Notes under the pieces: model-generated | What the model was told of the DNA's origin: nothing | Seen by the model: only the letters and a program-made list of their open reading frames with translations | Database searches by the model: none | In this document: one piece after another, positions 8,059-23,822 of the stretch | Layout: each line of letters opens with the position of its first letter | Numbering within the stretch: position 1 is the first letter of the stretch | Translations under genes and position numbers: made by a program | Assembly (NCBI GenBank): GCA_018433015.1 | Contig: JAHDSB010000099.1 | Span: forward strand, 1-33,446 | Direction: 5' to 3' | Length of the DNA: 33,446 nucleotides | DNA from: Clostridia bacterium | GTDB lineage: Bacteria > Bacillota > Peptococcia > DRI-13 > SV3-B141

Positions 8059-8076
8059 CACTAAGGAGGTTTGTTT

Positions 8077-9393
8077 ATGAATAACAGGATATTTCGTGAA
8101 GTGTCTATAGAACGTCTATCTTCTCCTGAACAGCTTGATCAGATGATGTCAGTTACTTCACCAAAAGCGTGGTTTTCCTTAATTGCCTTAGCTGCAATTC
8201 TATTTACTGCGATAATATGGAGTATCTTTGGAAGTATTCCCTATAAAACAAGTGGAGAGGGAATTCTGATAAAAAGCGAAGGAGTCTACAATATTAGTCA
8301 CACAAAAGGCGGAAAAATTATGGACATCAGTGTTGAAGCAGGAGATACAGTAAGAAAAGGTGACGTTGTGGCTAGGATTGAGCAGTCGGAACTTGTAGAA
8401 CAAATAGTTGATTTGGAAAAACAATTACAGGAGATTAGGAATTTTGAACTCAATACACCGGTTGTATCTACAGAACCCTCTCCTGCGCTAACTCAGTTGC
8501 ATGAATTAGCCAGAAAGGTTAGAGAAGCTAAGTCGGCAGTTGAGATCAGCAGAGCTGAGTATAATGAGATAAAAGTACAGCTGGAAAAGGCTAAGCTGAG
8601 TGCAGCTACTCAGGAAAAAGAACTTGAAAGACTTGCTGTATTATTAGAATTTGGTGCAATTGCTAAAGTTGAATATGATGCGGCCGCTGACAGTTTAGAA
8701 CAAGCAAAGCTGCAGGTGAAAGCTCTTGAAACCGGCATACATAGTGCTGAATTGAACCAAGCTCAGTTAACTGTAGAACTTTTAGAAGAACAATTGGCTG
8801 AAGTAAAAAAAGTAAATGAGATAGAGCTTGCAGAACAACTTGAAAAGCTAAAAAGAGATTTGGATTCTGGTACAAATATTGTTGCCGCTGAAGATGGCAG
8901 AGTCTTAGAAGTAAAAAAACGCAAAGGTGAACTAATTGAGCCTGGAATGGAACTTATTAGCGTAGAGCGAGAAGGAAGAACCATCAGGGATTTAGAGGTG
9001 GTGTTATATGTACCGGCTGAAGAAGGAAAACAAATATCACCTGGTCTGGAAGCGCAAATATCGCCAACAATCGTTAAAAAGGAAGAATATGGTTTTATGA
9101 TAGGTAGGGTAATTTCAGTTTCCGAGTTTCCGGCAACTTCGCAGGGCATGATGACTACTCTTGGAAGTCAGGACCTGGTTGCCAGACTTTCCCAAAGCAG
9201 TGCGCCTATTGAGGTTCGTGTTGAGTTAATAACCGACAGTAGCACAACAAGTGGCTACAAATGGTCATCTCCAAAAGGGCCCCCCATAACAATAGACAGT
9301 GGGACATTATGTGAAGGCACAGTTATGATAAGGAGTCAACGGCCCATAAGGCTGGTTATTCCCAAAGTGAAAAAGTTTATTATGGGATACTAA
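8077..9393 (+). CDS. NHLP-system HlyD-family secretion adaptor
   Basis: Start ATG 8077 is chosen because AAGGAGG (8063-8069) sits 7 nt upstream; TTG 8071 is too close to it. The 438-residue protein has a short cytoplasmic segment, one membrane helix at about residues 33-53, a lipoyl/biotinyl-like half (GGKIMDISVEAGDTVRKGD), a long alpha-helical coiled-coil hairpin (about 100-265, rich in Glu, Lys and Leu), then the returning lipoyl half (GRVLEVKKRKGELIEPGM) and beta-barrel. This is the membrane-fusion protein that pairs with C39-peptidase ABC exporters; the order adaptor, ABC1, ABC2 is that of the NHLM/NHLP bacteriocin systems. It should link the exporter to the cell exterior in this Gram-positive-like host. 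It lies 18 bp after the lipoprotein gene and 30 bp before the exporter. Confidence 0.88.
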   Translation: MNNRIFREVSIERLSSPEQLDQMMSVTSPKAWFSLIALAAILFTAIIWSIFGSIPYKTSGEGILIKSEGVYNISHTKGGKIMDISVEAGDTVRKGDVVARIEQSELVEQIVDLEKQLQEIRNFELNTPVVSTEPSPALTQLHELARKVREAKSAVEISRAEYNEIKVQLEKAKLSAATQEKELERLAVLLEFGAIAKVEYDAAADSLEQAKLQVKALETGIHSAELNQAQLTVELLEEQLAEVKKVNEIELAEQLEKLKRDLDSGTNIVAAEDGRVLEVKKRKGELIEPGMELISVEREGRTIRDLEVVLYVPAEEGKQISPGLEAQISPTIVKKEEYGFMIGRVISVSEFPATSQGMMTTLGSQDLVARLSQSSAPIEVRVELITDSSTTSGYKWSSPKGPPITIDSGTLCEGTVMIRSQRPIRLVIPKVKKFIMGY

Positions 9394-9423: not shown

Positions 9424-11598
9424 TTGAATAAAAGAAGTGCAAATAGATATAAAGTGCCAACAGTGCTACAAATGGAAGCAGTAGAATGTGGTGCTGCTTC
9501 TTTGGCAATGATATTAGGTTATTATGGAAAATATCTCCCTCTTGAAGAGTTGCGCATTGCTTGTGGTGTTTCCAGAGACGGAAGCAAAGCCAGCAATATC
9601 CTAAAAGCAGCTAAAAGATATGGTTTAGTAGCCAAGGGTTTTAAAAAAGAGCCGAATGACTTGAAGCAAATTGAGGGACCGGTGATTGTGCATTGGAATT
9701 TTAATCACTTTTTAGTACTTGAAGGATTCAAGAATAATAAGGTTTATCTTAATGACCCGGCCAGTGGACCGAGAATTGTAACTGAGGAAGAGTTTGATCA
9801 ATCCTTTACGGGGGTAGTTCTTACATTTCAAAAAGGCGAGGATTTTACACCTAGCGCAGGAAAACCGAGCATTTATTCAGCTCTACGCAAACGTCTAAAG
9901 GGTTCGGAAGTTGCCTTAGCTTTTATAATTCTGCTTGGAGCTGCCATGGTTATACCAGGATTGGTCATACCGGTTTTTTCAAAAATATTTATAGATGACA
10001 TTCTCCTTGCTAATAGAGATAACTGGTTGAGGCCTTTATTAATAGGTATGGGAATAACCGCCATATTGCGGGGGACTATGACTTGGATACAGCAGTACTA
10101 TCTTTTAAAGCTGGATACAAAGATTTCCTTGAGTACCTCAGGTCAATTTCTGTGGCACTTACTTAGGCTTCCGGCAGAGTTTTTTACACAGCGCCAAAGT
10201 GGAGATATCAGTTCTCGTATGCAAAGTAATAATAACGTTGCATCCCTTTTATCGGGTCAACTTGCTACTACGGCAATTGATTTCGTAATGATTGTGTTTT
10301 ATTTTATCTTAATGACTCGCTATAATATAGTTTTAGCTCTGGTAGGTGTGTTTGCAGCTTTCATTAATGTATTGTATTTAAAGTATGTTGCCTCAAAAAG
10401 GATTGACCAAAACCGTAAGCTTTTACAGGACAGAGGGAAACTTCAGGCAAATGCCATGTCAGGGCTCCAGGTTATTGAAACACTCAAAGCCACAGGATCT
10501 GAAGGAGACTTTTTTGCTAAGTGGTCAGGGTATCAGGCCAAAGCTTTAAATAATGAACAAAAAATGGGTGTATCAACCCAGTTCTTATCTGCAATTCCGG
10601 TATTTTTGACTTCATTAACGAATGCTGCCGTATTGGTAGCAGGAGGATTCTTTGTTATGTACGGGCAGATGACAATAGGTATGCTGGTAGCCTTTCAAAG
10701 CTTAATGACAAGTTTTATGACACCTGTTAATAACATGGTAAGTTTGGGTAGCAAATTACAGGAACTTGAAGGTGACATGAACCGTTTGGATGATGTTTTA
10801 AAGTATCCTGCTGATGATATTGTAAGTGGTGAACCGGATGATTCCGGAGAAGTAGAGTATCTTAAACAACAAGAAAAGCTTGCAGGATATATAGATATCC
10901 GTGACTTAAGCTTTGGATACAGCATCCTGGAACCTCCACTAATACAGAATTTTAGTTTGAGCGTAAAACCAGGTTCAAGGGTGGCTTTGATTGGTGGCTC
11001 GGGCAGTGGCAAATCTACCATTGCAAAACTGATTTCCGGAGTTTATAAACCATGGTCAGGAGAAGTATTATTTGATGGTATTGCAAGAGAGAGACTACCT
11101 AAAAGCGTTATTACAAATTCATTATCAGTTGTAGATCAGGATATAAATATGTTTAGTGGTACTATTAGAAATAATCTGACTTTATGGAATAATACTGTTT
11201 CTGAATTTGAAGTAATCCGTGCAGCAAAGGATGCATGTATACATGATGATATTACTGCAAAGTCTGGTGGCTATGATCACCGTCTGGACGAAGGAGGCAG
11301 TAACTTTAGCGGCGGACAAAGGCAGAGGCTGGAAATCGCCAGGGCTTTTGTACCAAATCCAACCATCCTGATTTTAGATGAAGCTACCAGTGCCTTGGAT
11401 CCTTTGACAGAAAAGTATATAGATGAAAGTATCCGACGTCGTGGCTGTACCTGTATAATAGTCGCTCATAGATTAAGTACAATTCGTGACTGTGATGAAA
11501 TTGTCGTTTTGGATAAGGGGAGAATTATAGAACGTGGCACTCATGATGAATTGATAAGAGCTGAAGGACATTATGCTGACCTTATTAATGCTAGTTAG
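9424..11598 (+). CDS. NHLP-system ABC exporter with C39 peptidase domain
   Basis: The 724-residue protein is a peptidase-containing ABC transporter of the NHLM/NHLP type. Residues about 10-140 are a C39 cysteine protease with Cys22 in VECGAASLAM, His95 in WNFNHFLVLEG and Asp111 in LNDPASG. Such domains cut leader peptides after a double glycine and export the remainder. A six-helix membrane domain runs from about 165 to 450, and the nucleotide-binding domain from about 490 has Walker A GGSGSGKST, signature FSGGQRQR, Walker B ILILDEATSALD and the H-loop VAHRLSTI. All catalytic residues are intact. The two precursor peptides at 21870 and 22185 end their leaders in VAGG, a suitable substrate. 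Start is TTG 9424 with a GAAAGGGTG ribosome site. Confidence 0.93.
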   Translation: MNKRSANRYKVPTVLQMEAVECGAASLAMILGYYGKYLPLEELRIACGVSRDGSKASNILKAAKRYGLVAKGFKKEPNDLKQIEGPVIVHWNFNHFLVLEGFKNNKVYLNDPASGPRIVTEEEFDQSFTGVVLTFQKGEDFTPSAGKPSIYSALRKRLKGSEVALAFIILLGAAMVIPGLVIPVFSKIFIDDILLANRDNWLRPLLIGMGITAILRGTMTWIQQYYLLKLDTKISLSTSGQFLWHLLRLPAEFFTQRQSGDISSRMQSNNNVASLLSGQLATTAIDFVMIVFYFILMTRYNIVLALVGVFAAFINVLYLKYVASKRIDQNRKLLQDRGKLQANAMSGLQVIETLKATGSEGDFFAKWSGYQAKALNNEQKMGVSTQFLSAIPVFLTSLTNAAVLVAGGFFVMYGQMTIGMLVAFQSLMTSFMTPVNNMVSLGSKLQELEGDMNRLDDVLKYPADDIVSGEPDDSGEVEYLKQQEKLAGYIDIRDLSFGYSILEPPLIQNFSLSVKPGSRVALIGGSGSGKSTIAKLISGVYKPWSGEVLFDGIARERLPKSVITNSLSVVDQDINMFSGTIRNNLTLWNNTVSEFEVIRAAKDACIHDDITAKSGGYDHRLDEGGSNFSGGQRQRLEIARAFVPNPTILILDEATSALDPLTEKYIDESIRRRGCTCIIVAHRLSTIRDCDEIVVLDKGRIIERGTHDELIRAEGHYADLINAS

Positions 11599-11625
11599 AC
11601 GGATGAGGTGGGGAGGCACAAGGAA

Positions 11626-14346
11626 ATGAGGGATACAGTGATTTTTAAAAATGAAGGTACTCCGGTTATTGTGGAAGGAAATAAACCGTTACTTTTAAAT
11701 AACTCTCATAATATATATCTGATAGAACAGGGCAGAGTTGCTGTATTTTTAACAGAATTAAAAGATTCCAAGGCAGTAGGCAGGAGATATTTTTTATTTG
11801 AAGCAAGCGCAGGTGACCTTTTATTTGGCATAAATTCAAGAGATACCGCAGAAACCAGCTATGGATTACTTGTATCGGGCTGGTTAGGAACAAGATTAAT
11901 TGAAGTTGAAAGAAGGAAATCAGATGCCTTAATTAATGATGAGGCCCATAGACAGATACTTCTTGAAAAGATTAACAAATGGGTTGCAAATCTATGGAAA
12001 GGTATTGAAGAACCCGGAATCCCCGAAGCAGTTTTAGGGATTGGTGATACTGAGCCTATTTCTGTAAAGGTAGATTTTGCTGGTAAAGAGCAGAGCCAAG
12101 AAGATTTTGAAAACAGCTTTCTAAAAAAAGCTGTTGCAAGAATATTTGCACAACTTCAATCAGAAAAGATACAGTTTGAAAAACAGAATGCAAATGATTT
12201 TGAGTTCATGGAAAATGCACTCAAAAAACTTGCCTCTGTTAATATGAAAAGCAAGGAAATTATACCTGATGTAATAACTGACGATCCACTGCTGTCAGCC
12301 TGCGGAATAGTTGGCAAAGCAGCGAAAATTAGAATTAAAGAACCGGCAAAATCATTGTCAGAAATACCAAGCAGTGATCCTTTAGGTGATATAGCTACCG
12401 CATCTCAGATAAAAATGCGTCAAGTAGTTCTAAGAGGGGAATGGTGGAATGAGGATAACGGTCCTCTTCTGGCCTATATGAAAGAAGATGAAAGACCCGT
12501 TGCTTTAATACCTATTTCTCCAGCTAAATACTATTTATATGATCCCTCTGAGAAAACTAAAACCCAAATAAACAGGGAAATTGCAGAAAAAATCAAGCCT
12601 TTTGGGATTGTATTTTACAAACCTTTTCCCAATAAAAAGTTAAATGCCAAAGATTTGCTTATTTTTGGTCTGGAAGGTTGCTGGAAACGTGATATAGCCA
12701 TGATACTTATTATGGGGATTTTAGGAGGTTTGTTAGGACTGCTTATTCCCATAGCAACGGGAATTGTATTTGACAATATTATTCCTGCCGGTGAAGGGGC
12801 CCAATTGCTGCAGGTAGGATTTTTTCTAGTAGCCAGTGCCTTGGCCGTAATGCTTTTTCAGTTGACTCGTTCTTTAGCTATGCTTCGCTTAGAAGGTAAA
12901 ATAGAGGGTTCCGTTCAGGCAGCTGTATGGGACAGGCTGATAGGCTTGCCTGTACCCTTTTTTAAGAATTATACATCAGGAGAGCTTGCCATGAGAGCTA
13001 TGGGTATAAGTCAGATACGGCAGACTCTTTCCGGTGTGACAATAACGACTATAATATCAAGTATATTTTCTATTTTTCAATTCCTGCTGTTGTTTTATTA
13101 TAGTTGGAAATTGGCCCTTATTGCCACAGCAATAGTAGCGTTTGCGATGCTTCTGACCTTAGCTCTGGGTTTAATACAAATACCTATGGAACGCAAAATG
13201 GTGGAAATGATGGATAGCATCACAGGAGTGGTATTAGAGTTGATAAATGGTGTTAATAAGTTCCGTGTAGCCGGAGCAGAAAAAAGAGCATTTTACCTTT
13301 GGGCCGATAAATTTGGTGAACTCTCCAAGGTATACATGAAAAAAGAAAAGCTTGCCAATTTATTGACAGTATTTAACTCTATGTTACCAATCATAAGTGC
13401 TATGATAATCTTTTTTGTTCTTCAGCACTTTGAAGAAATTACTCTGGACCCGGGAAAATTCATTGCTTTTAACTCGGCATTTATTGCTTTTTATACTGCG
13501 ATGATAGCAATGTCGGAAGCACTATTGGCGACAAATAATGTAATACCTCTATATCAAAGGTCTAAACCCATTCTGGAAAGCCTGCCGGAGCATGATGAGG
13601 CTAAGGGAAACCCGGGTGAACTTACCGGTGATATTGAGATAAATCATGTTTCCTTTAGATATAAGGAAGATAGTCCCCTGATCTTAAAAGATGTATCACT
13701 TGATATAAAAGCAGGAGAATATGTTGGTCTGGTAGGTCCGTCGGGAAGCGGAAAATCAACTCTTTTTCGAGTGCTGTTAGGATTTGAAAAGCCTGAAACC
13801 GGTCAGGTTTACTATAACGGACAGGATATAAGTAATGTAGATGTCAGATCTGTACGCAAACAACTGGGAGTTGTTCTGCAAAACAGCAAGTTGATGCCAG
13901 GAGATGTTTATTCAAATATTATTGGTTCAAATCCTGGCTTGACCATGTCAGATGCAATAGAAGCATCAAAAATGGCCGGACTTTATAATGATCTTAAAGA
14001 AATGCCCATGGGTATGCACACCATAATAAGTGAAGGCGGAGGCACATTATCCGGAGGGCAGAGGCAGCGTCTTTTGATTGCGAGAGCAATAGTTAACAAA
14101 CCTAAAATAATATTTTTTGACGAGGCTACCAGTGCCCTTGATAACAAAACACAGGATATTGTTAGGGAGAGTTTGGATGCTCTTAAAGCCACACGGGTAG
14201 TTATTGCCCATAGACTAAGTACAATTATGAATTGTGAAAAGATAGTTGTTCTTGATAAAGGGAAAATTGTTGAAATAGGCACTTACGATGAACTGATGGC
14301 TAAAAATGGACTTTTCTCAATGCTTGCTAAAAGACAGCTGGCTTAG
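11626..14346 (+). CDS. NHLP-system second ABC exporter (permease/ATPase)
   Basis: Start ATG 11626 is favoured by GGAGG at 11612-11616 (9-nt spacer) over GTG 11608. At 906 residues it is much longer than the 600-residue core of an ABC exporter; the first 350 or so residues are the extra N-terminal region of the NHLM ABC2 family, whose opening segment resembles a cyclic-nucleotide-binding-like beta barrel, with no protease motifs. The membrane domain begins near residue 350 (IAMILIMGILGGLLGLLIP) and the nucleotide-binding domain near 660 has Walker A GPSGSGKST, signature LSGGQRQR, Walker B IIFFDEATSALD and IAHRLSTI. It is expected to partner the C39 exporter, probably as a heterodimer or parallel pump (family knowledge). 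Neighbours are 27 bp and 18 bp away, consistent with one transcript. Confidence 0.9.
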   Translation: MRDTVIFKNEGTPVIVEGNKPLLLNNSHNIYLIEQGRVAVFLTELKDSKAVGRRYFLFEASAGDLLFGINSRDTAETSYGLLVSGWLGTRLIEVERRKSDALINDEAHRQILLEKINKWVANLWKGIEEPGIPEAVLGIGDTEPISVKVDFAGKEQSQEDFENSFLKKAVARIFAQLQSEKIQFEKQNANDFEFMENALKKLASVNMKSKEIIPDVITDDPLLSACGIVGKAAKIRIKEPAKSLSEIPSSDPLGDIATASQIKMRQVVLRGEWWNEDNGPLLAYMKEDERPVALIPISPAKYYLYDPSEKTKTQINREIAEKIKPFGIVFYKPFPNKKLNAKDLLIFGLEGCWKRDIAMILIMGILGGLLGLLIPIATGIVFDNIIPAGEGAQLLQVGFFLVASALAVMLFQLTRSLAMLRLEGKIEGSVQAAVWDRLIGLPVPFFKNYTSGELAMRAMGISQIRQTLSGVTITTIISSIFSIFQFLLLFYYSWKLALIATAIVAFAMLLTLALGLIQIPMERKMVEMMDSITGVVLELINGVNKFRVAGAEKRAFYLWADKFGELSKVYMKKEKLANLLTVFNSMLPIISAMIIFFVLQHFEEITLDPGKFIAFNSAFIAFYTAMIAMSEALLATNNVIPLYQRSKPILESLPEHDEAKGNPGELTGDIEINHVSFRYKEDSPLILKDVSLDIKAGEYVGLVGPSGSGKSTLFRVLLGFEKPETGQVYYNGQDISNVDVRSVRKQLGVVLQNSKLMPGDVYSNIIGSNPGLTMSDAIEASKMAGLYNDLKEMPMGMHTIISEGGGTLSGGQRQRLLIARAIVNKPKIIFFDEATSALDNKTQDIVRESLDALKATRVVIAHRLSTIMNCEKIVVLDKGKIVEIGTYDELMAKNGLFSMLAKRQLA

Positions 14347-14364: not shown

Positions 14365-15294
14365 GTGGGACAAGATAAGTGGGCTGTATCTTTTAAGACC
14401 ATAATAAGTTCATTGTTGTTTGCTTTTGTTTTTTATGCAGTAGCCCTTTGGAGGTATCTGGCCACAGGTTATATATTTTATCTTTTTAATTTTGGGTATA
14501 TTGGAACAGCACTTGCTATAGGACTCTTTTTAAACACTTCTTTACCAAAAAAATACAGATCGTGGGGTCGCAGAATAGCTCAAATTTTAGTAGGATCTTA
14601 TCTCCTTATATATGTAGGTTTTATTTTAGGAGAGAACTTACAGCTTGAAGGATTTTTTATTTATTTGTTAATGGGAGTTTTTCAAGGTGCAACATTACAT
14701 TTTTTTATTGCCAAGATAATAGGACCTGTATTGTTTAATCGTGGTTGGTGTAGTTGGGCTTGTTGGACAGCAATGGTACTTGATGTTCTTCCCTGGAAAA
14801 AACCGGTGCACAAAAGAGTACGCTATCTGGGATTAATAAGGTATGTTCATTTTTTTGTTTCATTTGCAGTAGTGTTTTATATCTGGTTTATACTGGAAAA
14901 CAGAACAATATATGCAGATAAACTTATGGAAGTATACTGGCTGGCAGTGGGTAGTGTCTTATACTATGCAGTAGGTTTATTCTTTGGTTTTATTTTTAAA
15001 GATAATAGAGCTTTCTGTAAGTATATTTGTCCAGTCCCGGTATTGCAAAAAATTACTTCCAGATATGCTGTTATGAAGATTGAAATTAATAAAGAAAAAT
15101 GTATAGATTGTGGCTTATGTGAAAAAAATTGTCCAATGAATATTAAGCTTCTAGAATATAAAAATGCCAACAAGCGCATTTGTTCAACAGAATGTATTTT
15201 GTGCACCACATGTATTGAAGTATGTCCTAAATCAGCAGTCAGCATAACAAATAAAATTGATTTTTGTAATACGGAATACTTGGATATTTTTTAA
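14365..15294 (+). CDS. NapH-like membrane protein with two 4Fe-4S clusters
   Basis: The 309-residue protein has about six membrane helices (near 10-33, 37-56, 70-90, 97-116, 160-178, 190-212), a Fer4_5-type cysteine pair RGWCSWACW, a further conserved CKYICPVPV, and a C-terminal ferredoxin domain with CIDCGLCEKNCP and CILCTTCIEVCP, each a full 4Fe-4S binding set. It belongs to the NapH/NosR/CcoG-like polyferredoxin group that moves electrons between the membrane and soluble partners. No molybdoenzyme, nitrous-oxide or cytochrome oxidase genes are nearby. It follows the second exporter at 18 bp, so it is probably co-transcribed. Its role here is unclear; it might feed electrons to a tailoring step or keep thiols reduced. 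GTG 14365 is the start, preceded by AAAGGGGA. Confidence 0.82.
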   Translation: MGQDKWAVSFKTIISSLLFAFVFYAVALWRYLATGYIFYLFNFGYIGTALAIGLFLNTSLPKKYRSWGRRIAQILVGSYLLIYVGFILGENLQLEGFFIYLLMGVFQGATLHFFIAKIIGPVLFNRGWCSWACWTAMVLDVLPWKKPVHKRVRYLGLIRYVHFFVSFAVVFYIWFILENRTIYADKLMEVYWLAVGSVLYYAVGLFFGFIFKDNRAFCKYICPVPVLQKITSRYAVMKIEINKEKCIDCGLCEKNCPMNIKLLEYKNANKRICSTECILCTTCIEVCPKSAVSITNKIDFCNTEYLDIF

Positions 15295-15301: not shown

Positions 15302-15329
15302 TGTAATACATTTTAAGTCTGTCCGTATT
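15302..15329 (+). promoter_or_regulatory. Possible ECF-type autoregulatory promoter
   Basis: TGTAAT (15302-15307) and CGTATT (15324-15329) are separated by 16 nt just upstream of the sigma gene. Many ECF promoters use a TGAAAC/TGTAAC-like -35 and a CGTA/CGTC -10 with 16-17 nt spacing, and many ECF genes autoregulate. The -35 match is imperfect and the 61-bp gap is short, so this is a suggestion only. Confidence 0.3.
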
Positions 15330-15355
15330 AAAAGTAGGTGAAGGAAATAAAACAT

Positions 15356-15934
15356 ATGGATTTCAATTTGGATATTGAAAAGATTTCTCATGAAGCCTTG
15401 CTAGTGGCTAATGCGGCTACTAATCCTGAGGCATTTGCAATAATCTATGACTTATATTTTTCCCGAGTTTATAATTACATTAGATTTAGGGTAGGAGATC
15501 CTTATCTAACTGACGATTTAACCAGCCAAGTTTTTGAAAAGGTTTTAAATAAAATTACTATGTATCAACAAAATAGAGGAAACTTTGCTGCGTGGTTATT
15601 TGCAATAGCTCATAATACTGTCCTTGATCATTTTCGCAAACAAAAAATTAGCTCACTTGTTTTTTTCGATAACCATAAGCAAAAGAATTTAGATTCTGAA
15701 CCAGAGGATGCTGTTATAGCTAAAGAATTGCGTGAAGATTTATTTACCGCTTTGAAGAGCTTGAACGACAGAGAAAGAAATATTCTTGGTCTTAAGTTTT
15801 GGTCAAGCCTAACAAATCGTAAAATAGCTGAACTTACAGGTCTTACTGAAAATAATGTAGGGATCATTATTTATCGGGCTATTAAACGTCTAAGGGTGTA
15901 TTTAAGTGACCTGGGGGTAAATAGCTATGAATGA
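15356..15934 (+). CDS. ECF-type sigma-70 family RNA polymerase sigma factor
   Basis: ATG 15356 is preceded by AAGGA at 15341-15345; GTG 15338 is a longer alternative with no ribosome site. The product is 192 residues. Region 2 spans about 25-90 (YDLYFSRVYNYIRFRV, TDDLTSQVFEKVLNK, FAAWLFAIAHNTVLDHFRKQK) and region 4 about 125-185 (LNDRERNILGLKFW, NRKIAELTGLTENNVG, RAIKRLRVYL). Regions 1 and 3 are absent, as in ECF sigma factors. It sits between the NHLP export genes and the biosynthetic genes, on the same strand, and overlaps the following gene by 8 nt. An anti-sigma factor would be expected in that position. I infer that it controls some or all of the cluster in response to an unknown signal. 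Confidence 0.88.
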   Translation: MDFNLDIEKISHEALLVANAATNPEAFAIIYDLYFSRVYNYIRFRVGDPYLTDDLTSQVFEKVLNKITMYQQNRGNFAAWLFAIAHNTVLDHFRKQKISSLVFFDNHKQKNLDSEPEDAVIAKELREDLFTALKSLNDRERNILGLKFWSSLTNRKIAELTGLTENNVGIIIYRAIKRLRVYLSDLGVNSYE

Positions 15935-16331
15935 AAAAATATTGGCAAAGATGTTTTCCGAAGAATTAGATCAATTAGCCCAAGGTAATCATGAACCTAA
16001 TAAGACTGAATTCCTTGATGAGTATGCAGAAGAAGTAAAACTGGTGGAAGCTATTCTACATGAGGATTTTAGTAGGGAAAGCTCAATAAGAGAAGATTTA
16101 AAGAAAAGATTATTAGATAAATTTAATACTCGGATAGAATCTGGGAACCAACAAAATAAGGGTTTTAATGCTGATGATGAGCTTAGTGAAGAAGATCTTG
16201 ATTTTGTAGCAGGTGGTCATTCGCTTAAAGAGGAATCAGGTTGTACTAAATGCGGCTGTAAAAGAAGTCGTGCCACAATAACTACTGCTATATGCCCGGA
16301 TTGTGGTCATAATCGGGATGATCACATGTAG
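15927..16331 (+). CDS. Sigma-coupled zinc-ribbon protein with a VAGG leader-type motif
   Basis: The 134-residue protein occupies the anti-sigma position (start overlaps the sigma stop). It has no membrane helix. Residues 1-70 are acidic and helical, with no ZAS (HxxxCxxC) motif. Residues about 83-97 read DELSEEDLDFVAGGHS, which matches the DELSDSDLDSVAGG and DELSSADLDSVAGG ends of the two precursor peptides in this cluster. The remaining 37 residues hold four cysteines in a ribbon-like pattern, CTKCGC and CPDCGH, likely binding a metal. It could be (a) an anti-sigma factor inactivated by the C39 protease, (b) a third exported cargo, or (c) a plain zinc-ribbon regulator with chance similarity. 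The motif is seen directly; the functions are inference. Confidence 0.65.
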   Translation: MNEKILAKMFSEELDQLAQGNHEPNKTEFLDEYAEEVKLVEAILHEDFSRESSIREDLKKRLLDKFNTRIESGNQQNKGFNADDELSEEDLDFVAGGHSLKEESGCTKCGCKRSRATITTAICPDCGHNRDDHM

Positions 16332-16348: not shown

Positions 16349-16470
16349 GAATTAGATGGGGTTTCACCCCACCTGATTCTTAGAAGATGTTATCCATGCT
16401 AGTAATACTCACAAATTTGTTCGTTAGTGTCCATCTTTGATGCTCACCGCCTAATAGAGGATAGCGGTGA
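16349..16470 (+). repeat. Two-hairpin intergenic element, copy B
   Basis: A hairpin with GAATTAGATGGGG and CCCCACCTGATTC (16349-16379) is followed by TCACCGC/GCGGTGA (16444-16470) and TTAG. The layout, the GGGG/CCCC core and the AGCGGTG-TTAG ending match copy A at 5912-6063, although the middle part differs. It fills most of the gap between the zinc-ribbon gene and the ketoreductase gene, and its second hairpin ends about 32 bp before the ribosome site. No U-tract follows. Confidence 0.55.
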
Positions 16471-16516
16471 TTAGTTAAAGCAATTCGGAGTGTTGGGGAT
16501 AAAAGGAGATGATAGT

Positions 16517-17278
16517 GTGCTATTAAAAGATAAGGTCGCCATAGTGACAGGTGCTACCGGTGGAATAGGCAAGGCAGTTATCCGGAAATTATGTTCAGAA
16601 GGTGCTAAAGTGGCAGGGTTATATCGCAGTCAAAGTACGGTGGCTGATGAAATTCAGACAGAGCTTGCCGAACATGGCTTCGAGACATGCTTTTACAGGG
16701 GAGATATCACTGATGAAGCTTTTATTGCCCAAACATTCAAAAGCATTAAGGATAGATTTGGAAGGATAGATATTTTAGTGAATAATGCCGGCATTACCAA
16801 AGACGCTTTTCTTGCACAAATGCAGTGGGATGAGTGGAATGCTGTGTTTAGAACAAATTATTTAGGCACCTATGTGTGCACTAAGGAAGTTCTTCCATAT
16901 TTGCTGGAAAGCACTAATTTATGTGAGAAAAAGTATGGAAAGGTAATAAACATAATTTCTATCTCAGCACTTTTGGGGCGGGAAGCCCAAACCAATTATA
17001 GTGCATCAAAAGGTGCGGTGTTGGGCCTTACACGTTTATTCTCCAGAGAATATTCCCATAAAGGTATCTTATTTAATGCTCTGGCTCCCGGTTTAATTGA
17101 AACAGAAATGATTAGGCACCTGCCGGATAATAAGAGGACAGGCATGATTGACTCAACTAATATGAAAAGGATGGGTAAAGCAGAAGAAGTAGCTGGAGCT
17201 GTACTCTTTTTGTGCAGTAGCCTATCCGATTACTGCAATAATACTGTTTTAACAATTGATGGTGGGATGTTAAGGTAA
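16517..17278 (+). CDS. fabG: 3-oxoacyl-ACP reductase (FabG-like SDR ketoreductase)
   Basis: GTG 16517 has AAAGGAG at 16502-16508 with 8-nt spacing and gives the usual MLLKDKVAIVTG opening; GTG 16490 would add nine unlikely residues. The 253-residue protein is a classical short-chain dehydrogenase: cofactor loop TGATGGIG, NNAG at about 90-95, catalytic Ser in ISISALLG, Tyr161 and Lys165 in YSASKG, and a C-terminal TIDGGML. It should use NAD(P)H to reduce 3-oxoacyl-ACP to 3-hydroxyacyl-ACP. Next to the KS-CLF fusion and a dehydratase, it is most simply the ketoreductase of a dedicated acyl-chain-building set rather than the housekeeping FabG. The gene symbol denotes homology only. Confidence 0.88.
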   Translation: MLLKDKVAIVTGATGGIGKAVIRKLCSEGAKVAGLYRSQSTVADEIQTELAEHGFETCFYRGDITDEAFIAQTFKSIKDRFGRIDILVNNAGITKDAFLAQMQWDEWNAVFRTNYLGTYVCTKEVLPYLLESTNLCEKKYGKVINIISISALLGREAQTNYSASKGAVLGLTRLFSREYSHKGILFNALAPGLIETEMIRHLPDNKRTGMIDSTNMKRMGKAEEVAGAVLFLCSSLSDYCNNTVLTIDGGMLR

Positions 17279-17328
17279 ATGCCGGGTTCTATTTTACCGA
17301 TAAACTCAAGTTTAGGGAGGGATCAACA

Positions 17329-19575
17329 TTGGCCGTGCGCAGAAGAGTTGTAGTAACCGGTGTTGGAATATTTTCTTCAATGGGAAGAAGCAAATACGAA
17401 GTTATAGCTAATATGAAGAAAAATTCAACAGGGATTGGTGAAGTTTCCCAGTTTTCAACGGATCAGATGATCAGTAAATATGGAGCAGAAATCAAGGGTT
17501 ATGTTGCGGAACCAGAGTTAAGCAGATATAGCAAGTGTACTCAATTTGGAATACATGCAGCAAAAGAAGCCCTTAAGGATAGCGGGCTGGATATCAAATC
17601 CCATAATGCTGATACCTTTGCCCTTTGTTTTGGTACATGCAATGGGGGAGTAGCTGAATTTGAAAAAGCAAAAAAAATAGTGGATTTGGATTATGAATAT
17701 ACTATTAACTTCCCCTTGTTTCAGCAGGGAGATGGTATAGCTGAGCATTTAGGTATAAAAGGGCCGGTGATTTCTAATGTGACTGCCTGTGCAGCCAGTG
17801 GCCATTCCTTAAGCGTTGGTTATGAAATGCTCTCTCAGGGAAAAATGACGGCTGTTTTGGTAGGTGGAGCAGACGCATTATCTGAGACAGTCTATGCTGG
17901 ATTTAATAGTCTACAATCCTTAAGCCCCTCACCATGTGCACCTTTTGGTTATCCTACAGGGTTAAGCTTGGGGGAGGGTGCCGCCTTTGTAATACTGGAG
18001 CCATTAGAAAGTGCGCTAGAAAGAAATGCATATATATATGCTGAAATATGTGGTTATGGATTAGATCAGGACGCTCATCATATAACTGCTCCACACCCTG
18101 AGGGAGATGGGATAGCGCGGGCTGTTACCTCGGCTCTTAATCAGGCTGAAGTAAACCCTACGGAAATTGGTTATATAAATGTGCATGGAACAGGTACGGA
18201 AGCAAATGATGTTTGTGAATTAAAAGGAATCAGAAAAGCATTAGGGGATGATATGTTTCCCCAAATACCTCTAAGCTCCAGCAAAGCCTCTTTTGGACAT
18301 ACCTTAGGAGCTGCGGCCGCTATTGAGATGGTTAGTTCTTTAATAGCTATAAAGGAAGGCCTGCTCCCTGCTACTTTACATACTAAAACTTTGAGGGAAG
18401 GCTGCACAGAAGCCAATCATGTATTAAATGAAATGATTGCAGGATACCCACGGTATTTTTTATGCAATAATTCTGCTTTCGGTGGTCATAATTCTTCAGT
18501 TCTATTTAGGAATTGGCAGTTAAATCAGGTGTCTCACACAACTAAAAAAGAGTATTCCCCAAGAAGAGTTGGGATTATGGGAATCTCTATGGTTAATCAG
18601 TATGAACACATATCCGGCAATGATGGTATCGTAAATCATATGCAGGGCATTGATATAGAAAAAACTAGGAAAGAGGTAAAGGAGTATATTGCCTCCTTTT
18701 ATGCTAGGAGAATGAGTATAATAACCCAGTACAGTATAGCCGGGATTATCCGATCTTTAAATGATGCAAATATTGAAGTAACTGCTGATAATTCCAAGGA
18801 TATTGGATTGATTTTTGGTACCATGTATGGTGCTTCAGAGAACTTTTGTAAATATCTTAAAAAGATCTTTGAGCAGGGGTTATCCTTTGCCAGCCCTTTA
18901 TATTTCCCGGATACCTCTGCCAATACGACTCCGGGCAGTGCTGCCATGAAGCTAGGAATAAAAGGAAGTGGCACTACTGTATCAACAGGTGGTAATGAAG
19001 GCCTTCTTGCTTCTTACATAGCTTATAATTTGGTTAGGAACGGATATCAACAATTATGCCTGGTGGGAGCTGCAGAAGAAACTTCTAGCTTTAGTAATGA
19101 AGTTAACCGGGTACTAGGTTTTCATAAGGGTAAATACCCCATAACTGAGGGTAGTTGCTTTATGGTTCTGGGGGACCTGGAGGAGCAAGATAAGCTAAAT
19201 ACCAGGTGCTATGGGGAAATAAGGGGTTTTGGTTTTTCCTTTGGTATGGATAATTACCAAAATGCTGTTCTGAATGCGTTAAATGATGCAGGTATTGATG
19301 TGGGGGATATAGACTTTGTATTTTATAATGACGATGGTATTGAGGAAAAGGGACTGTGTCAGAAAAAAAGTTTGGAAGCACTTTTTGTCTCAAGAGAAAT
19401 ACCCATTAAAACCTGCAACAATGTATTTGGTTATGCCTTGTCCGTAAGCTCTATGTATCATATATATCAGGCTGCAGATTGGCTTTTCAATTCCCAGGAT
19501 CATCAGTATGCGTTAGTAGTCAGCTCATCTTATAATTGCGGGAACGCAGCTATGGTTATTGGAAGGGTGGGGTAA
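17329..19575 (+). CDS. Fused ketosynthase and chain-length-factor-like protein
   Basis: The 748-residue protein holds two ketosynthase-fold halves. The first (about 1-405) is a normal beta-ketoacyl-ACP synthase: Cys154 in TACAASGHS, His286 in NVHGTGTEAND, and His324 in SKASFGHTLGAA. The second (about 420-748) has the same thiolase fold but no catalytic residues: the Cys site reads VSTGGNEG, the first His site reads FYNDDGIEEK, and the second reads NNVFGYALS. This is the pattern of a KS and its chain-length-factor partner, which in type II polyketide systems are separate polypeptides. Together they should extend and set the length of an ACP-bound acyl chain. TTG 17329 is preceded by GGGAGGG at 7 nt. 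It follows the ketoreductase by 50 bp and the next gene by 5 bp. Confidence 0.85.
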   Translation: MAVRRRVVVTGVGIFSSMGRSKYEVIANMKKNSTGIGEVSQFSTDQMISKYGAEIKGYVAEPELSRYSKCTQFGIHAAKEALKDSGLDIKSHNADTFALCFGTCNGGVAEFEKAKKIVDLDYEYTINFPLFQQGDGIAEHLGIKGPVISNVTACAASGHSLSVGYEMLSQGKMTAVLVGGADALSETVYAGFNSLQSLSPSPCAPFGYPTGLSLGEGAAFVILEPLESALERNAYIYAEICGYGLDQDAHHITAPHPEGDGIARAVTSALNQAEVNPTEIGYINVHGTGTEANDVCELKGIRKALGDDMFPQIPLSSSKASFGHTLGAAAAIEMVSSLIAIKEGLLPATLHTKTLREGCTEANHVLNEMIAGYPRYFLCNNSAFGGHNSSVLFRNWQLNQVSHTTKKEYSPRRVGIMGISMVNQYEHISGNDGIVNHMQGIDIEKTRKEVKEYIASFYARRMSIITQYSIAGIIRSLNDANIEVTADNSKDIGLIFGTMYGASENFCKYLKKIFEQGLSFASPLYFPDTSANTTPGSAAMKLGIKGSGTTVSTGGNEGLLASYIAYNLVRNGYQQLCLVGAAEETSSFSNEVNRVLGFHKGKYPITEGSCFMVLGDLEEQDKLNTRCYGEIRGFGFSFGMDNYQNAVLNALNDAGIDVGDIDFVFYNDDGIEEKGLCQKKSLEALFVSREIPIKTCNNVFGYALSVSSMYHIYQAADWLFNSQDHQYALVVSSSYNCGNAAMVIGRVG

Positions 19576-19580
19576 AGTCC

Positions 19581-20327
19581 GTGGAAAGCAAGGAAATAAG
19601 AAAAATAATATTATCTGAAGCACATCGGGAGGAAAATCTGCGCATAGCAGCTTACCTGCTAGAAAAGGGTTGTTATCTTACTTTAATAGCTAATGAAAGT
19701 GAAAAGCTCAACAGTTTTTTTAATAATCTTACTACTGAATATCAAAGCAGATGCTTTGTTAAATGCCTTGATGAGTATACAGAAATAGGAATTTCTGGAG
19801 CTATAGACAGTATCATAGATACGATGAAGGGAATAGATGTTTTTATTAATGGACTGTCAGGTACAAATGAAACGGCCCAGCTGAATCTGTCACCTAGCTC
19901 TTTTGGTAAAGAGATAGCTTCTGATTTTGATAGATTGTTTCTTTTAAACAGAGAAATTGTTCGCTATATGGTTAGGCAAAAAAATGGTAATGTCATATTT
20001 TTAATGATTGATGATATTTTACATTTTGCTGATTATCCTGTAAGTCCCGTAAATAATCAGGGAAGGCTTGCTTTAATGAAAAGTATGGCCAAGGAACTCC
20101 TCCCCTTTAAGATAAAAATTAACTCACTTACTTTTGGAATTCATGACCGGGGGTTTAAGCCGGCAGAGAAAAGGTCTATGAAAAAGAAGCTGGAGTTTTG
20201 TGCTTTAAAACCTCCTATTCCTGAATGGAAAGAATTGTTGCCAGCACTAGATGCCCTTATATATCCGCCATTCCAGTACATGACAGGTCAAAATTATTCT
20301 GCCAGTATTGGCACCAGTAATACTTAG
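19581..20327 (+). CDS. Degenerate short-chain-dehydrogenase-like protein
   Basis: GTG 19581 lies just after the preceding stop (5-bp gap); the longer frame from 19536 would overlap the KS-CLF gene. The 248-residue protein follows the SDR layout: a first beta strand (KIILSEAHREENLRIAAYLL), a region at DVFINGLSGTNE in place of the NNAG strand, and the strand GNVIFLMIDDIL before the catalytic helix. The glycine cofactor loop (TGxxxGIG) is replaced by LSEAHREEN, and the YxxxK active site is replaced by NNQGRLA, so I expect no dehydrogenase activity. It may be a structural partner for the active ketoreductase or KS-CLF, or bind an intermediate. Such inactive SDR partners occur in other acyl-chain systems (knowledge), but its role here is inference. 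Confidence 0.6.
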   Translation: MESKEIRKIILSEAHREENLRIAAYLLEKGCYLTLIANESEKLNSFFNNLTTEYQSRCFVKCLDEYTEIGISGAIDSIIDTMKGIDVFINGLSGTNETAQLNLSPSSFGKEIASDFDRLFLLNREIVRYMVRQKNGNVIFLMIDDILHFADYPVSPVNNQGRLALMKSMAKELLPFKIKINSLTFGIHDRGFKPAEKRSMKKKLEFCALKPPIPEWKELLPALDALIYPPFQYMTGQNYSASIGTSNT

Positions 20328-20349
20328 GTTGGTTGCACCTTGTTGTCTA

Positions 20350-20435
20350 TGGCACCGCGGCACTAGGCCATCCATGGTCGTCGGCCGCTCCTTGCCATCC
20401 GTGGCACCGCGGCACTAGACCATCCATGGTCGTCG
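20350..20435 (+). repeat. GC-rich 34-bp tandem repeat
   Basis: Two 34-bp copies (20350-20383 and 20402-20435) begin TGGCACCGCGGCACTAG and end ATCCATGGTCGTCG, with one mismatch (G/A at position 18) and an 18-bp spacer. They contain palindromes CCGCGG and CCATGG, and GACCAT/ATGGTC can pair in each. The GC content is far above the surrounding AT-rich genome, suggesting an inserted repeat family rather than native intergenic DNA. It lies between the degenerate SDR and the dehydratase. Confidence 0.85.
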
Positions 20436-20450
20436 AAAGGATGAGTAATT

Positions 20451-20909
20451 ATGGATATTAAAGATAAAAAGCAAAATATTGTTTTTTCAAGAATGCCTCA
20501 TGAATTATTAAAAACAGCACCTCCCTTTTTGTTTGTGGATAAGGTGCATGAGTTTGATAAGGAAGAACAGAGAATAATCTGCTCAAAACAGGTGGGGTAT
20601 AATGAACCATATTTTGCAGGACACTTTCCCGGGGATCCTATCGTACCTGGAGTTTTAATAACTGAAATGGCAGTTCAAGCCAGTGCATTACTATTTACTG
20701 CAATTAATGATGAAGTTTTGCAGGAGGGCTATTTAGTCCGAACCAAGAATTTTAGCTTCTATAATTCGGTGCGACCCGGTAGCGGCATAATGCTAAGAGT
20801 TGAATTAGTAGAGCATGTGGGCAACTTTGTTACTACTAAGGCCCTAATAACACTTCAAGGAGAGAAAACAAGGGTTGCCAAGGGAGAGGTGGTCCTGTTC
20901 TTAAGGTGA
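20451..20909 (+). CDS. fabZ: FabZ-like 3-hydroxyacyl-ACP dehydratase
   Basis: The 152-residue hot-dog-fold protein has the FabZ signature GHFPGDPIVPGVLITEMAVQ, with catalytic His58 and Glu72. It opens MPHELLKTAPPFLFVDKV after a short extension, close to FabZ length (about 145-150). It should dehydrate 3-hydroxyacyl-ACP to trans-2-enoyl-ACP. No enoyl reductase is encoded in the window, so chains built by this set may keep their double bonds. ATG 20451 has an AAAGGATG ribosome site. The stop overlaps the next GTG by 4 nt. Confidence 0.88.
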   Translation: MDIKDKKQNIVFSRMPHELLKTAPPFLFVDKVHEFDKEEQRIICSKQVGYNEPYFAGHFPGDPIVPGVLITEMAVQASALLFTAINDEVLQEGYLVRTKNFSFYNSVRPGSGIMLRVELVEHVGNFVTTKALITLQGEKTRVAKGEVVLFLR

Positions 20910-21916
20910 AAAGTATTTGGGAAAAATTAGGAGCAACTGAAATTATAATGGATTTGCCCCTTTGGGTAGATAATATTCACTGTTTCTTGTTTAGAGGGAA
21001 GGATGGCTGGGATCTTCTTGATACGGGCATTTATACTCCTGGAGCAATGGAAACGTGGAAAGAGACCTTTCGCAAGCTAAGGATAAATCCCTTAGATATC
21101 AGGCAAATTGTTGTTACCCATGACCACGTGGATCATTTCGGGGCAGCAGGTGAATTACAGAAGCTGACCCAGGCCCCGGTTAAAATGATGATGCAAAAGA
21201 ATAGCTTAGTTTCTTTAAAGGATTGGTTAAAGGCAATTCTTGATGAAGATAATGCATTTAATTACTTTGGCCTGCCTAGGGAGTTAAAAGAAAAAGTTAT
21301 TTGGGAAAAAATCACCCAATTTAAAAACTGGGCCCCCAGTATTCCGAACATTGAGGATATAAGTGATCAGGAGACCATATTCCTTGGCTGTGAGCGTTAT
21401 CAGATACTTAAATTGGCCGGACATTGTACTAATCAGATTTGTTTTTATCACCCGGATTTGGAAGTGCTTTTTGCAGGTGATACGCTGGTAACACCTAACC
21501 ATTTGAATATCACCACTAAAGAACCGTTGACGGAGTATTTTAATTCTTTAGAACTGCTGCAAAAAAAGAAAATAGCCTATCTGATTCCTTCACACGGCAA
21601 GCCTTTTACAAGGGTTAAAATTCGCATAGGACTTATAGCTGAATATAGAAAACAGCAATTGGCAGCACTGAAGGAATACTTAGCAAAGGGAAGCACTGTA
21701 TATCAAGCATATCTTTTCTTGCTATCCTCCAGCGGAGCCTTATCAGACTTGTTTTTTGGATTAACGGAGGTTTATTACTTTTTAGAGCACCTGGTTACAC
21801 AAGGGGATATAAAAATGATAACTACAAAAGATTGCTTTTATTATCTGAATTTGAAAGGAGGTGAAAGAAATGAAATGGACGAGAGAAGATCTGGATGCAG
21901 CAATGGTAAAGATTGA
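20906..21916 (+). CDS. Metallo-beta-lactamase-fold hydrolase
   Basis: A 336-residue MBL-fold protein with the dinuclear metal motif THDHVDHFG (His72, His74, Asp76, His77), a further metal His in LAGHCTNQ, Asp in LFAGDTLV and a final His in IPSHGKPF. The N-terminus (WVDNIHCFLFRG, WDLLDTGIYTPGA) matches the glyoxalase-II-like branch. It may release an acyl or thioester intermediate, as MBL-type thioesterases do in some polyketide pathways (knowledge), but thiolesterase or lactonase activity is not proven here. The GTG start overlaps the dehydratase stop, and its own last 47 nt overlap the first precursor gene in another frame, so expression is tightly coupled. Confidence 0.82.
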   Translation: MKSIWEKLGATEIIMDLPLWVDNIHCFLFRGKDGWDLLDTGIYTPGAMETWKETFRKLRINPLDIRQIVVTHDHVDHFGAAGELQKLTQAPVKMMMQKNSLVSLKDWLKAILDEDNAFNYFGLPRELKEKVIWEKITQFKNWAPSIPNIEDISDQETIFLGCERYQILKLAGHCTNQICFYHPDLEVLFAGDTLVTPNHLNITTKEPLTEYFNSLELLQKKKIAYLIPSHGKPFTRVKIRIGLIAEYRKQQLAALKEYLAKGSTVYQAYLFLLSSSGALSDLFFGLTEVYYFLEHLVTQGDIKMITTKDCFYYLNLKGGERNEMDERRSGCSNGKD

Positions 21917-22151
21917 GGAGCTTGCAAGTACAGATATGGAGTTTAGAAAGCTTTGCCTAAGTGACCCACATGCAGCTATTAAGGAAGCTACTGGTAAGGA
22001 TGTAGACCCTGGCTATAAGCTAAAATTCTTAGAAAACGAAGATGGATATGAAACCTTCGTATTGCCGGACTTCAAAGGCTCAGGGGATGAACTGAGTGAT
22101 TCTGATTTGGATAGCGTAGCAGGTGGCGGAACAAAATGGGACATTGGATAG
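21870..22151 (+). CDS. NHLP-family precursor peptide 1
   Basis: ATG 21870 has AAAGGAGG at 21854-21861 with 8-nt spacing, giving 93 residues. The leader is of the nitrile-hydratase-leader-peptide type (IKEATGKDVDPGYKLKFLE, YETFVLPDFKG) and ends DLDSVAGG, a C39 double-glycine cleavage site. If cut there, the core is only GTKWDIG: seven residues with one Lys, one Trp, one Asp and no Cys. It is one of two tandem near-identical leaders with different cores. The start lies within the preceding MBL gene. The leader is intact; only the core length is unusual for the family. Confidence 0.9.
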   Translation: MKWTREDLDAAMVKIEELASTDMEFRKLCLSDPHAAIKEATGKDVDPGYKLKFLENEDGYETFVLPDFKGSGDELSDSDLDSVAGGGTKWDIG

Positions 22152-22184
22152 GATGTTATTCTACTAGATTAGGGGTGAATTAGA

Positions 22185-22466
22185 ATGGAATGGACCAGAG
22201 AAGATCTGGATGCAGCAATGGCTAAGATTGAGGAGCTTGCAAGTACAGATATGGAGTTTAGAAAGCTGTGCCTTAGCGATCCCCATGGAGCGATTAAGCA
22301 GGCAACCGGTAAGGATGTAGATCCTGGCTATAGATTAAAATTCATAGAAAATGAAGGTGGATATGAAACCTTCGTACTACCGGATTTTAAAGGCTTAGGA
22401 GATGAGCTGTCTAGTGCTGACTTAGATTCAGTAGCTGGTGGAGGCTCTTCAACTAAAAGTTTTTAA
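22185..22466 (+). CDS. NHLP-family precursor peptide 2
   Basis: A 93-residue paralogue of the preceding peptide, 33 bp downstream, with an AGGGGTG ribosome site before ATG 22185. The leader is nearly the same (ASTDMEFRKLCLSDPHGAIK, VDPGYRLKFIENEGGYETF), ending DLDSVAGG. The predicted core is GSSTKSF, again seven residues with a single Lys but otherwise unlike core 1. The leader/core contrast in conservation is what is expected of RiPP precursors: the part read by the maturation and export proteins is kept, the product part varies. Confidence 0.9.
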   Translation: MEWTREDLDAAMAKIEELASTDMEFRKLCLSDPHGAIKQATGKDVDPGYRLKFIENEGGYETFVLPDFKGLGDELSSADLDSVAGGGSSTKSF

Positions 22467-22477
22467 TTAGTTTTGGT

Positions 22478-22530
22478 AAGCATATCCGTATTTGGGCATT
22501 TAAATCGTAAAGTCCAAATACGGAGTGCTT
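22478..22530 (+). promoter_or_regulatory. Strong intercistronic hairpin after the precursor genes
   Basis: TCCGTATTTGG (22485-22495) pairs perfectly with CCAAATACGGA (22514-22524), extended by AAGCA (22478-22482) and TGCTT (22526-22530). No U-run follows, only TGTCC, so it may be a leaky terminator or a 3'-stabilising hairpin that keeps precursor mRNA more abundant than the downstream enzyme mRNA. Confidence 0.6.
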
Positions 22531-22588
22531 TGTCCTGTAAAAAACCTAAATTTTGGCTATGGTATTGATGCAAATTGGAGGAAGCAAA

Positions 22589-23473
22589 GTGTATTATATA
22601 GAGCAATTAAATGAAACTATGATCAAAGATTTTGAAAAACTAACATATACCGAGTTTAGGCCTCTGCTTTACAAAGCAGGAGGTGATTCGTCCGTTATTG
22701 CCTTTGGCGCATTTAGTTATCCTGCTCAGCCGATAGGACTCATCCTTGGAGAAGTTACAAAAGATGGCTGTATGTTTATCTACACAGTATTTGTTAAGCC
22801 CAAATATCGCAGATGTGGTGTAGCGACAGCCTTATTTAAAGAAATGGAGCAGGCTGCGGTGGCTAAAAATTGTTGTGGGCTTAGCCTGGGATTTATCCAC
22901 GATAATCCATATAGTGAACTGTTTAATAAATTGCTCCAAAAATGTGGTTGGGAAAGACCTGCTCAAACCGTAATGCTTCTTTATAAAATGAATATGGAGG
23001 ACCTTCTTGCGGAGGATGCACCAATATTTGCAGAAATGGAGTTACCTGCCGGTTTAACTGTAAGCAACTGGCAGGAGCTTAGTAAGCAGGAGTTTGAAGA
23101 AATAAAAAAAGGCAAGGGCATTTGGTACCCTGAGTTGACATCTCCCTTTTTGGAAGAGGAACGAGTTGACCCCTTTAATTCAGTATTCCTAAGAGATGAA
23201 AACAGGGAGATAATCGGTTGGACAATAACTCATCGCTTAGATTCAGAAACTATGCTCTATCGTAATATCTTTGTGAAAGATGAATATCGCTCCATGGGCT
23301 ATGCAATGCTCCTAATGGGGAATGCCATTTGGCGTCAATATGACCGGGGGATTTATAAGCTGATGTTTTGCGTTCATGTGAAGAATAAGAACATGAATAG
23401 AATTGTAAGTAGGTTTATGAAACCATTTAAATATACAGTTAAAAAGAAGCTGCAGTTCAGTAAGATTTTATAG
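22589..23473 (+). CDS. Tandem-domain GNAT acyltransferase
   Basis: GTG 22589 with GGAGG at 22577-22581 (7-nt spacer) is a better start than TTG 22553. The 294-residue protein contains two GNAT folds. The first has VFVKPKYRRCGVATALFKEME, the acyl-CoA pyrophosphate loop (R-R-C-G-V-A). The second has IFVKDEYRSMGYAMLLMGNAI (R-S-M-G-Y-A). Both motif A regions look usable. In RiPP and polyketide-peptide systems, GNAT proteins attach acyl groups to Lys, Orn or the peptide N-terminus (selidamide and goadvionin precedents). Placed directly after the precursor peptides and directly before the acyl carrier protein, it is the best candidate for joining chain to peptide (inference). It has a hairpin upstream and is 23 bp from the ACP. 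Confidence 0.8.
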   Translation: MYYIEQLNETMIKDFEKLTYTEFRPLLYKAGGDSSVIAFGAFSYPAQPIGLILGEVTKDGCMFIYTVFVKPKYRRCGVATALFKEMEQAAVAKNCCGLSLGFIHDNPYSELFNKLLQKCGWERPAQTVMLLYKMNMEDLLAEDAPIFAEMELPAGLTVSNWQELSKQEFEEIKKGKGIWYPELTSPFLEEERVDPFNSVFLRDENREIIGWTITHRLDSETMLYRNIFVKDEYRSMGYAMLLMGNAIWRQYDRGIYKLMFCVHVKNKNMNRIVSRFMKPFKYTVKKKLQFSKIL

Positions 23474-23496
23474 TTATAAAGAGGGGAGCAGTTATT

Positions 23497-23781
23497 ATGT
23501 CAGATATAGAAAAAATAAAACAAGTTATCAAGGAAGATATTTTAATCAAACGTCTGGAATTAGAAGATATAACGGCTGAAGAGATTGAGGATAATACACC
23601 TTTATTTGGTGAAGGCTTGGGACTTGATTCTGTTGAAGCCCTTGATGTTGTAGCGGGATTAGAACAATCTTTTGGCGTAAAGCTCCAGGGTGTTTCTCCC
23701 AAGGAATTCCAAAAGCACTTATACTCTGTAGAGACTATTGCCCAATATGTGGTTGCTAAGGATGGAAAGATAATTGCCTAG
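23497..23781 (+). CDS. Acyl carrier protein
   Basis: A 94-residue acyl carrier protein with the phosphopantetheine site Ser45 in GLDSVEALDVV and the usual acidic helices (EEIEDNTPLFGEGLGL). It should be activated by the phosphopantetheinyl transferase at 26404 and carry the chain built by the KS-CLF, reductase and dehydratase. It is distinct from the carrier domain inside the following NRPS. Start ATG 23497 follows an AGAGGGGAG ribosome site. No dedicated malonyl transferase is in the window, so the host FabD presumably loads it. Confidence 0.9.
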   Translation: MSDIEKIKQVIKEDILIKRLELEDITAEEIEDNTPLFGEGLGLDSVEALDVVAGLEQSFGVKLQGVSPKEFQKHLYSVETIAQYVVAKDGKIIA

Positions 23782-23822
23782 TTTATTTTGACTTTAATTT
23801 ATATCAATTCAGGGGGGATGTT

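Follow-up and report, generated by a model that had tools for sequence, protein, structure and literature searches.

The protein encoded at positions 15927–16331 (+ strand, 134 aa) of the window, as we call the whole 33,446-nucleotide stretch of DNA analysed here, is probably a soluble anti-sigma factor, because its residues 1–70 share homology with the N-terminal ends of DUF4367-bearing membrane anti-sigma factors. Behind this segment it carries a mimic of the leader end recognised by C39 exporter peptidases, followed by a cysteine ribbon. It is a member of an undescribed family, spread across several bacterial families, that joins an anti-sigma-like segment to a leader mimic; nearly every genome in which the family was found also has a C39 exporter protease. 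From these sequence relationships we lean slightly towards a scheme in which the exporter and the sigma factor would compete for the soluble anti-sigma protein, with expression coupled to the presence or occupancy of the exporter.

The ORF lies in a cluster with the genes of an NHLM-type exporter: the HlyD subunit (8071–9393, +; TIGR03794, E=2.8e-122), the C39-peptidase ABC exporter proposed as the partner of the mimic (9424–11598, +; TIGR03796, 1137 bits; PF03412, E=1.9e-39), in which the catalytic residues Q16, C22, H95 and D111 are intact, and the second ABC subunit (11608–14346, +; TIGR03797, E=1.1e-296). An ECF sigma factor gene (15356–15934, +) matches TIGR02937 (E=1.8e-29) and Pfam Sigma70_r2 and r4; its match to TIGR02952 (E=3.5e-47) is below the cut-off of that model. 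The ATG at 15356 is a more likely start for this gene than the GTG at 15338. Two NHLP precursors, at 21861–22151 (+) and 22185–22466 (+), match TIGR03793 below its cut-off (E=5e-11 and E=1e-9, respectively), and their leaders end in DELSDSDLDSVAGG and DELSSADLDSVAGG. Also encoded in the window are fatty-acid-synthesis-like proteins, a tandem GNAT acyltransferase, a carrier protein, an adenylation enzyme and a phosphopantetheinyl transferase. The exporter, sigma, precursor and GNAT genes were identified with family models, and the others from the sequences themselves. It is noted that the acyl-chain genes, between 16490 and 27054, flank the two precursors, both of which have short cores with a single lysine each. 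The combination of NHLP precursors, GNAT and C39 exporter resembles the clusters of selidamides, which are lipidated RiPPs (PMC9505594), and by this analogy 16490–27054 seems to be a selidamide-like lipidated RiPP cluster with its own acyl-chain genes. A NapH-like Fe-S membrane protein is encoded between the exporter and the sigma gene (14365–15294) and is kept in the closest related cluster, described below.

The earlier note had placed the ORF in the usual position of an anti-sigma factor, and this is supported by both gene order and homology. Its first 8 nt lie within the ECF sigma gene, which has its stop at 15934, and such an overlap is also seen in the closest relative, G038, and at loci L025, L027, L004 and L033. 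The N-terminal domain (residues 1–70; 15927–16136, +), with the motif DFSxxSxIRExLKKRLL, aligns with the N-termini of membrane DUF4367 anti-sigma factors at an hhalign probability of 97.9% (E=3.6e-13). The reference DUF4367 proteins are anti-sigma factors by position, beside ECF genes; in profile searches, proteins directly behind ECF sigma genes were found to have the same 70 residues, followed by a membrane segment and a DUF4367 domain. In another ECF pair from Firmicutes, an N-terminal fragment of 39 residues from the anti-sigma factor is enough for sigma binding (PMC3397946). The 134 residues of the ORF contain no long hydrophobic stretch that could form a membrane segment, and no Pfam family matches it, the DUF4367 and anti-sigma domains included. 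A profile search of the PDB with the N-terminal domain gave nothing significant (best E=0.12), and two AlphaFold2 models, the first led by the L025 homologue, were of low confidence (mean pLDDT 55–59). The window's own genome encodes, elsewhere (L043; contig C32, ~9.7 kb), a second ECF sigma factor paired with a membrane DUF4367 anti-sigma factor; the N-terminus of the latter shows homology to that of the ORF.

The leader mimic, DELSEEDLDFVAGG, occupies residues 84–97 (16176–16217, +). C39 peptidases recognise hydrophobic leader residues at −12, −7 and −4 and cut after GG, GA or GS (PMC6363468; PMC10885120). The ORF has L, L and V at these contact positions and glycine at both −2 and −1. The motif was scored with a matrix built from residues −12 to −3 of 51 GG-cargo leader motifs from related loci, the GG itself being excluded. 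It reached 19.8. Among the 342,046 10-mers that 815 long proteins from these loci provide, only nine scored as high, each of them a real VAGG cargo leader; the highest-scoring 10-mer that is not a leader reached 14.2. This test rules out a chance origin of the motif. An ordinary NHLP precursor was likewise ruled out, as the nitrile-hydratase-like leader domain TIGR03793 is not detected in the ORF at E<=1. Both observations of the earlier note, that the sigma-coupled ORF contains a motif like the VAGG leaders and that the rest of it is unrelated to NHLP leaders, were thus borne out. The match of the ORF in NCBIfam is motif-length only, to the CTB bacteriocin leader family (residues 85–100, E=4e-4). 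When the ORF is compared with the leaders of NHLP and Nif11-type RiPP precursors, the last 13 residues, which form the C39 recognition part, are closely alike, whereas the remainder is unrelated; most members of the leader-mimic family also differ from these leaders in having Ala-Ala instead of Gly-Gly.

Behind the GG, residues 98–134 (16218–16328, +) form a ribbon of the pattern CxxCxC...CxxCGH. It has five cysteines (C106, C109, C111, C123 and C126) and not four, as stated earlier. The whole cluster, in the same gene order, was found in 'Clostridiaceae bacterium BRH_c20a' (G038; contig LADT01000006.1), from another family of the same class. The G038 ORF is 57% identical overall, and keeps the GG (DELNEEELDYAAGG) and all five cysteines. 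Conservation between the two is highest in the ribbon after the GG (78% identity, dN 0.13, dS 0.96), compared with 51% in the N-terminal domain and 15% in the linker. The CxxC pairs are also present in L025 and L027, and in these four proteins the ribbon may stabilise the protein or serve in metal or redox sensing. A direct scan of viral contigs for relatives of the ORF found none; a scan of genome contigs with the single ORF sequence also gave none, and with an alignment only the already known G038 contig. An inverted repeat, GGGGTttcACCCC, without a T-run, lies between the ORF and the FabG-like gene at about 16360–16376 and is a possible attenuator; the corresponding gap in G038 has only 22 bases.

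The wider family was detected with a short profile, A3, consisting of the anti-sigma-like segment and the motif. Motif-bearing members were found in 12 of the 398 genomes of a phylum sample and in 50 of the 121 genomes of one bacterial family, f40, which is probably Negativicutes because some of its loci carry TolC-like genes. Since A3 itself includes the motif, at least one match in each positive genome was read and confirmed as a family member and not a precursor. Most members are 50–90 aa long, with the pattern ...DFSxxSKVKDSLLxxLL...LSDDELDxVAAAGNP... followed by variable charged tails, and most have no conserved domain beyond the motif. The short relatives have only about 32 residues in common with the anti-sigma domain. 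Even after removal of the motif, the N-terminal part of these relatives aligns with the anti-sigma domain of the long soluble form (hhalign 89.6%, E=1.9e-6) and with that of the membrane form (87.9%, E=3.2e-6). Pfam and NCBIfam have no family entry covering these small proteins, and among open-licence papers we found none that connects either double-glycine leaders or NHLP systems to anti-sigma factors.

Within 66 distinct family motifs, the positions contacted by C39 are well kept: position −12 is occupied by L in 43 motifs and by M in 20, position −7 by L in 64 (by L or M in nearly all) and position −4 by V in 40, otherwise by A, L or I; −8 is E or D in 57. The residues at −2 and −1 are Ala-Ala in 63 motifs and Ala-Gly in one; Gly-Gly is seen only in the window and G038, which are thus the only members with a pair from the C39 set GG/GA/GS. 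Precursors in the family loci retain GG. An ECF gene is present within 10 kb in 37 of 42 complete 20-kb windows around members, and 25 of 78 members have one on the same strand no more than 350 bp away.

The family is tightly linked to C39 exporters. A C39 domain is present in 59 of the 398 genomes of the phylum sample; with the window's own genome set aside, it is found in all 11 motif-bearing genomes against 58 of 397 overall (p=2.7e-10). In f40, an NHLM-grade C39 domain (E<1e-25) occurs in 49 of 50 family-positive and 9 of 71 family-negative genomes (p=2e-23), and the assembly of the single exception, G501, is fragmented and 8% contaminated. Because the genomes are related, the comparison at genus level is fairer than the genome counts: 14 of 14 genera against 0 of 16 (p=7e-9). 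At the level of loci, 27 of the 42 complete windows have a C39 gene no more than 10 kb away. Four loci (L091–L094) have an ECF gene nearby and no C39 gene within 10 kb, and two (L104, L105) are distant from any ECF or C39 gene. The domain also occurs in G341 (L029, L098), where it leads into another C-terminus that lacks the motif; no C39 gene is present within 10 kb of it, although the genome has one elsewhere. GG-bearing homologues beside sigma genes in genomes without an exporter, which the earlier note had named as evidence against its proposal, were looked for and none was found.

A candidate promoter for the sigma factor was first hinted at, as GTAA-N17-CGTA, in an unguided dyad search upstream of genes that otherwise returned mostly A+T noise. 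In its full form, TGTAAT-N16-CGTATTA, it stands before the sigma/anti-sigma pair at 15302–15330 (+) and is the single exact site in the 3.75-Mb genome; a looser scan of the window gave no second exact site. G038 has one such site before its sigma gene and one further site elsewhere (L200; contig C34, 23530), near HlyD/ABC-type export genes and not clearly connected. Across the collected loci, TGTAAT-N16-CGTA occurs at 51 sites, compared with 0–5 at other spacings and 0–3 with permuted −35 boxes. The exact sites of G158, G129, G059 and G175 all fall within the leader-mimic family loci of those genomes, and 28 of 49 promoter sites in family loci precede cargo or small-protein genes. We infer from this co-occurrence that the window's ECF sigma factor reads TGTAAT-N16-CGTATTA. 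A promoter unique in the genome, directly before the sigma gene and shared with family loci, supports a sigma factor that would be autoregulated and dedicated to the cluster.

Considering that 63 of the 66 motifs have Ala-Ala at the scissile positions, docking on the exporter fits the family better than cutting by it, and is the more likely family-wide function as judged from the motifs. The simplest reading would be that the family keeps the residues that fit the C39 groove and has lost those needed for being cut; we infer that these C39 domains do not cut the Ala-Ala motifs. The GG is present in, or was regained by, the window's branch, and cleavage of the window's own protein is possible. 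In the mechanism we propose, the N-terminal domain would bind the ECF sigma factor encoded upstream, as its homology suggests, and the leader mimic and cysteine ribbon would replace the membrane anchor and sensor of the DUF4367 cousins. The conserved contact residues suggest the leader groove in the C39 domain of the exporter as the docking site of the mimic; the mimic could thereby tether the anti-sigma domain to the exporter, as a transmembrane segment does in the membrane cousins, and true cargo would compete with it for the exporter. An exporter that is present and has not been filled by precursor would hold the anti-sigma protein, leaving the sigma factor free to turn on its own operon from TGTAAT-N16-CGTATTA. 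In the window's version, with its intact GG, the anti-sigma protein held at the exporter might also be cut. Once precursors fill the exporter, the anti-sigma protein would return and the operon would be shut down. The sign of this control, with an idle exporter switching the sigma factor on and a cargo-filled one switching it off, is the one we favour as a guess, and the opposite is possible. As to the more general proposal, that these proteins are widespread, undescribed regulators that read exporter occupancy through leader mimicry, most of them docking uncut and the window's branch acting as a cleavable switch, we hold it tentatively and a little less readily than its converse.

Association alone does not separate docking from a different explanation, since the ECF circuits to which the motif-bearing proteins belong go together with exporters. 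The motif could belong to the surface that binds the sigma factor, as an acidic amphipathic helix whose likeness to a leader arose by convergence, in an ECF branch that regulates exporter clusters. Residues 88–94 of the motif are indeed predicted to be helical, at low confidence. Such a surface should be weighed against the absence of the motif from the membrane anti-sigma factors that share this N-terminal domain and from the G341 protein, which has no C39 gene within 10 kb. It must also account for a position-by-position match to C39 leaders in spacing and residues, with a score equal to that of real leaders, and we consider convergence of this kind rather unlikely. The earlier note had proposed a different route to the same end, in which C39 cuts after VAGG, splits the sigma-binding part from the ribbon and so frees the sigma factor. 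The window and G038 retain all minimal C39 determinants including the GG (PMC6363468), the C39 catalytic residues are intact, and the ribbon after the GG is the most conserved part. As a family mechanism, however, cleavage is not supported: Ala-Ala lies outside the C39 set (PMC6363468; PMC10885120), the homologues in which conservation of the GG was to be checked do not have it, apart from that of G038, and a cut in most relatives could not act through domain separation, because no conserved domain follows the motif. We regard this route as improbable. What survives of that proposal is the tie between expression and the exporter, in another form and for a larger family.

Two further explanations seem to us quite remote. 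The ORF itself could be export cargo, its N-terminal part being an unusual leader and the 37-residue cysteine ribbon the secreted product; the GG is intact and the ribbon strongly conserved in the two closest members, and cargo genes are close by. Yet the ORF overlaps a sigma gene, its N-terminus is homologous to anti-sigma factors and not to leaders, and the tails of its relatives are charged, variable and unlike products. To the same low degree, the small proteins might be plugs or inhibitors that guard C39 against futile cleavage and take no part in regulating the sigma factor. Ala-Ala at the scissile position would suit a non-cleavable competitor, and some members are away from ECF genes, but the segment in common with anti-sigma factors and the frequent closeness to an ECF gene argue against it.

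The preferred reading, competition between exporter and sigma factor for the anti-sigma protein, has parallels among known systems. Like membrane anti-sigma factors whose sensor is a DUF4367 (PF14285) domain, the ORF has the homologous N-terminal domain and a gene directly behind an ECF sigma gene; where those have a membrane anchor and an outer domain, it has the leader mimic and the ribbon. Zinc-binding (ZAS-type) anti-sigma factors are also soluble, cysteine-bearing and encoded next to ECF genes, whereas the ribbon of the ORF is C-terminal, separate from the anti-sigma-like domain, and no Pfam anti-sigma family matches. FlgM, the exported anti-sigma factor of the flagellum, ties sigma activity to an export machine, the type III system. 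The logic is common to both, but the ABC/C39 exporter is unrelated to the type III system and export of the anti-sigma protein itself is not implied. It is for the most part unclear how producers of RiPPs and bacteriocins keep the synthesis of precursors in step with their capacity for export. If the proposal is true, the substrate-recognition site of the exporter would double as a sensor for the cluster's sigma factor, a direct molecular link, and the defined promoter sequence exposes the regulon of the family and makes the idea easy to test.

Several family loci deserve mention for their gene content. Long-form relatives at L089 and L090 (G158, G129) stand beside Nif11-like precursors with cysteine-containing cores, a radical SAM/SPASM-like protein and an NHLM exporter. 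At L093, L094 (G059, G175) and L099 (G343), leader-mimic proteins with other cysteine-rich tails are encoded before the ECF gene, not behind it. G484 and G493 have multiple small leader-mimic paralogues at several loci, with up to four matches per genome, some of them adjoining GG precursors with no ECF gene nearby.
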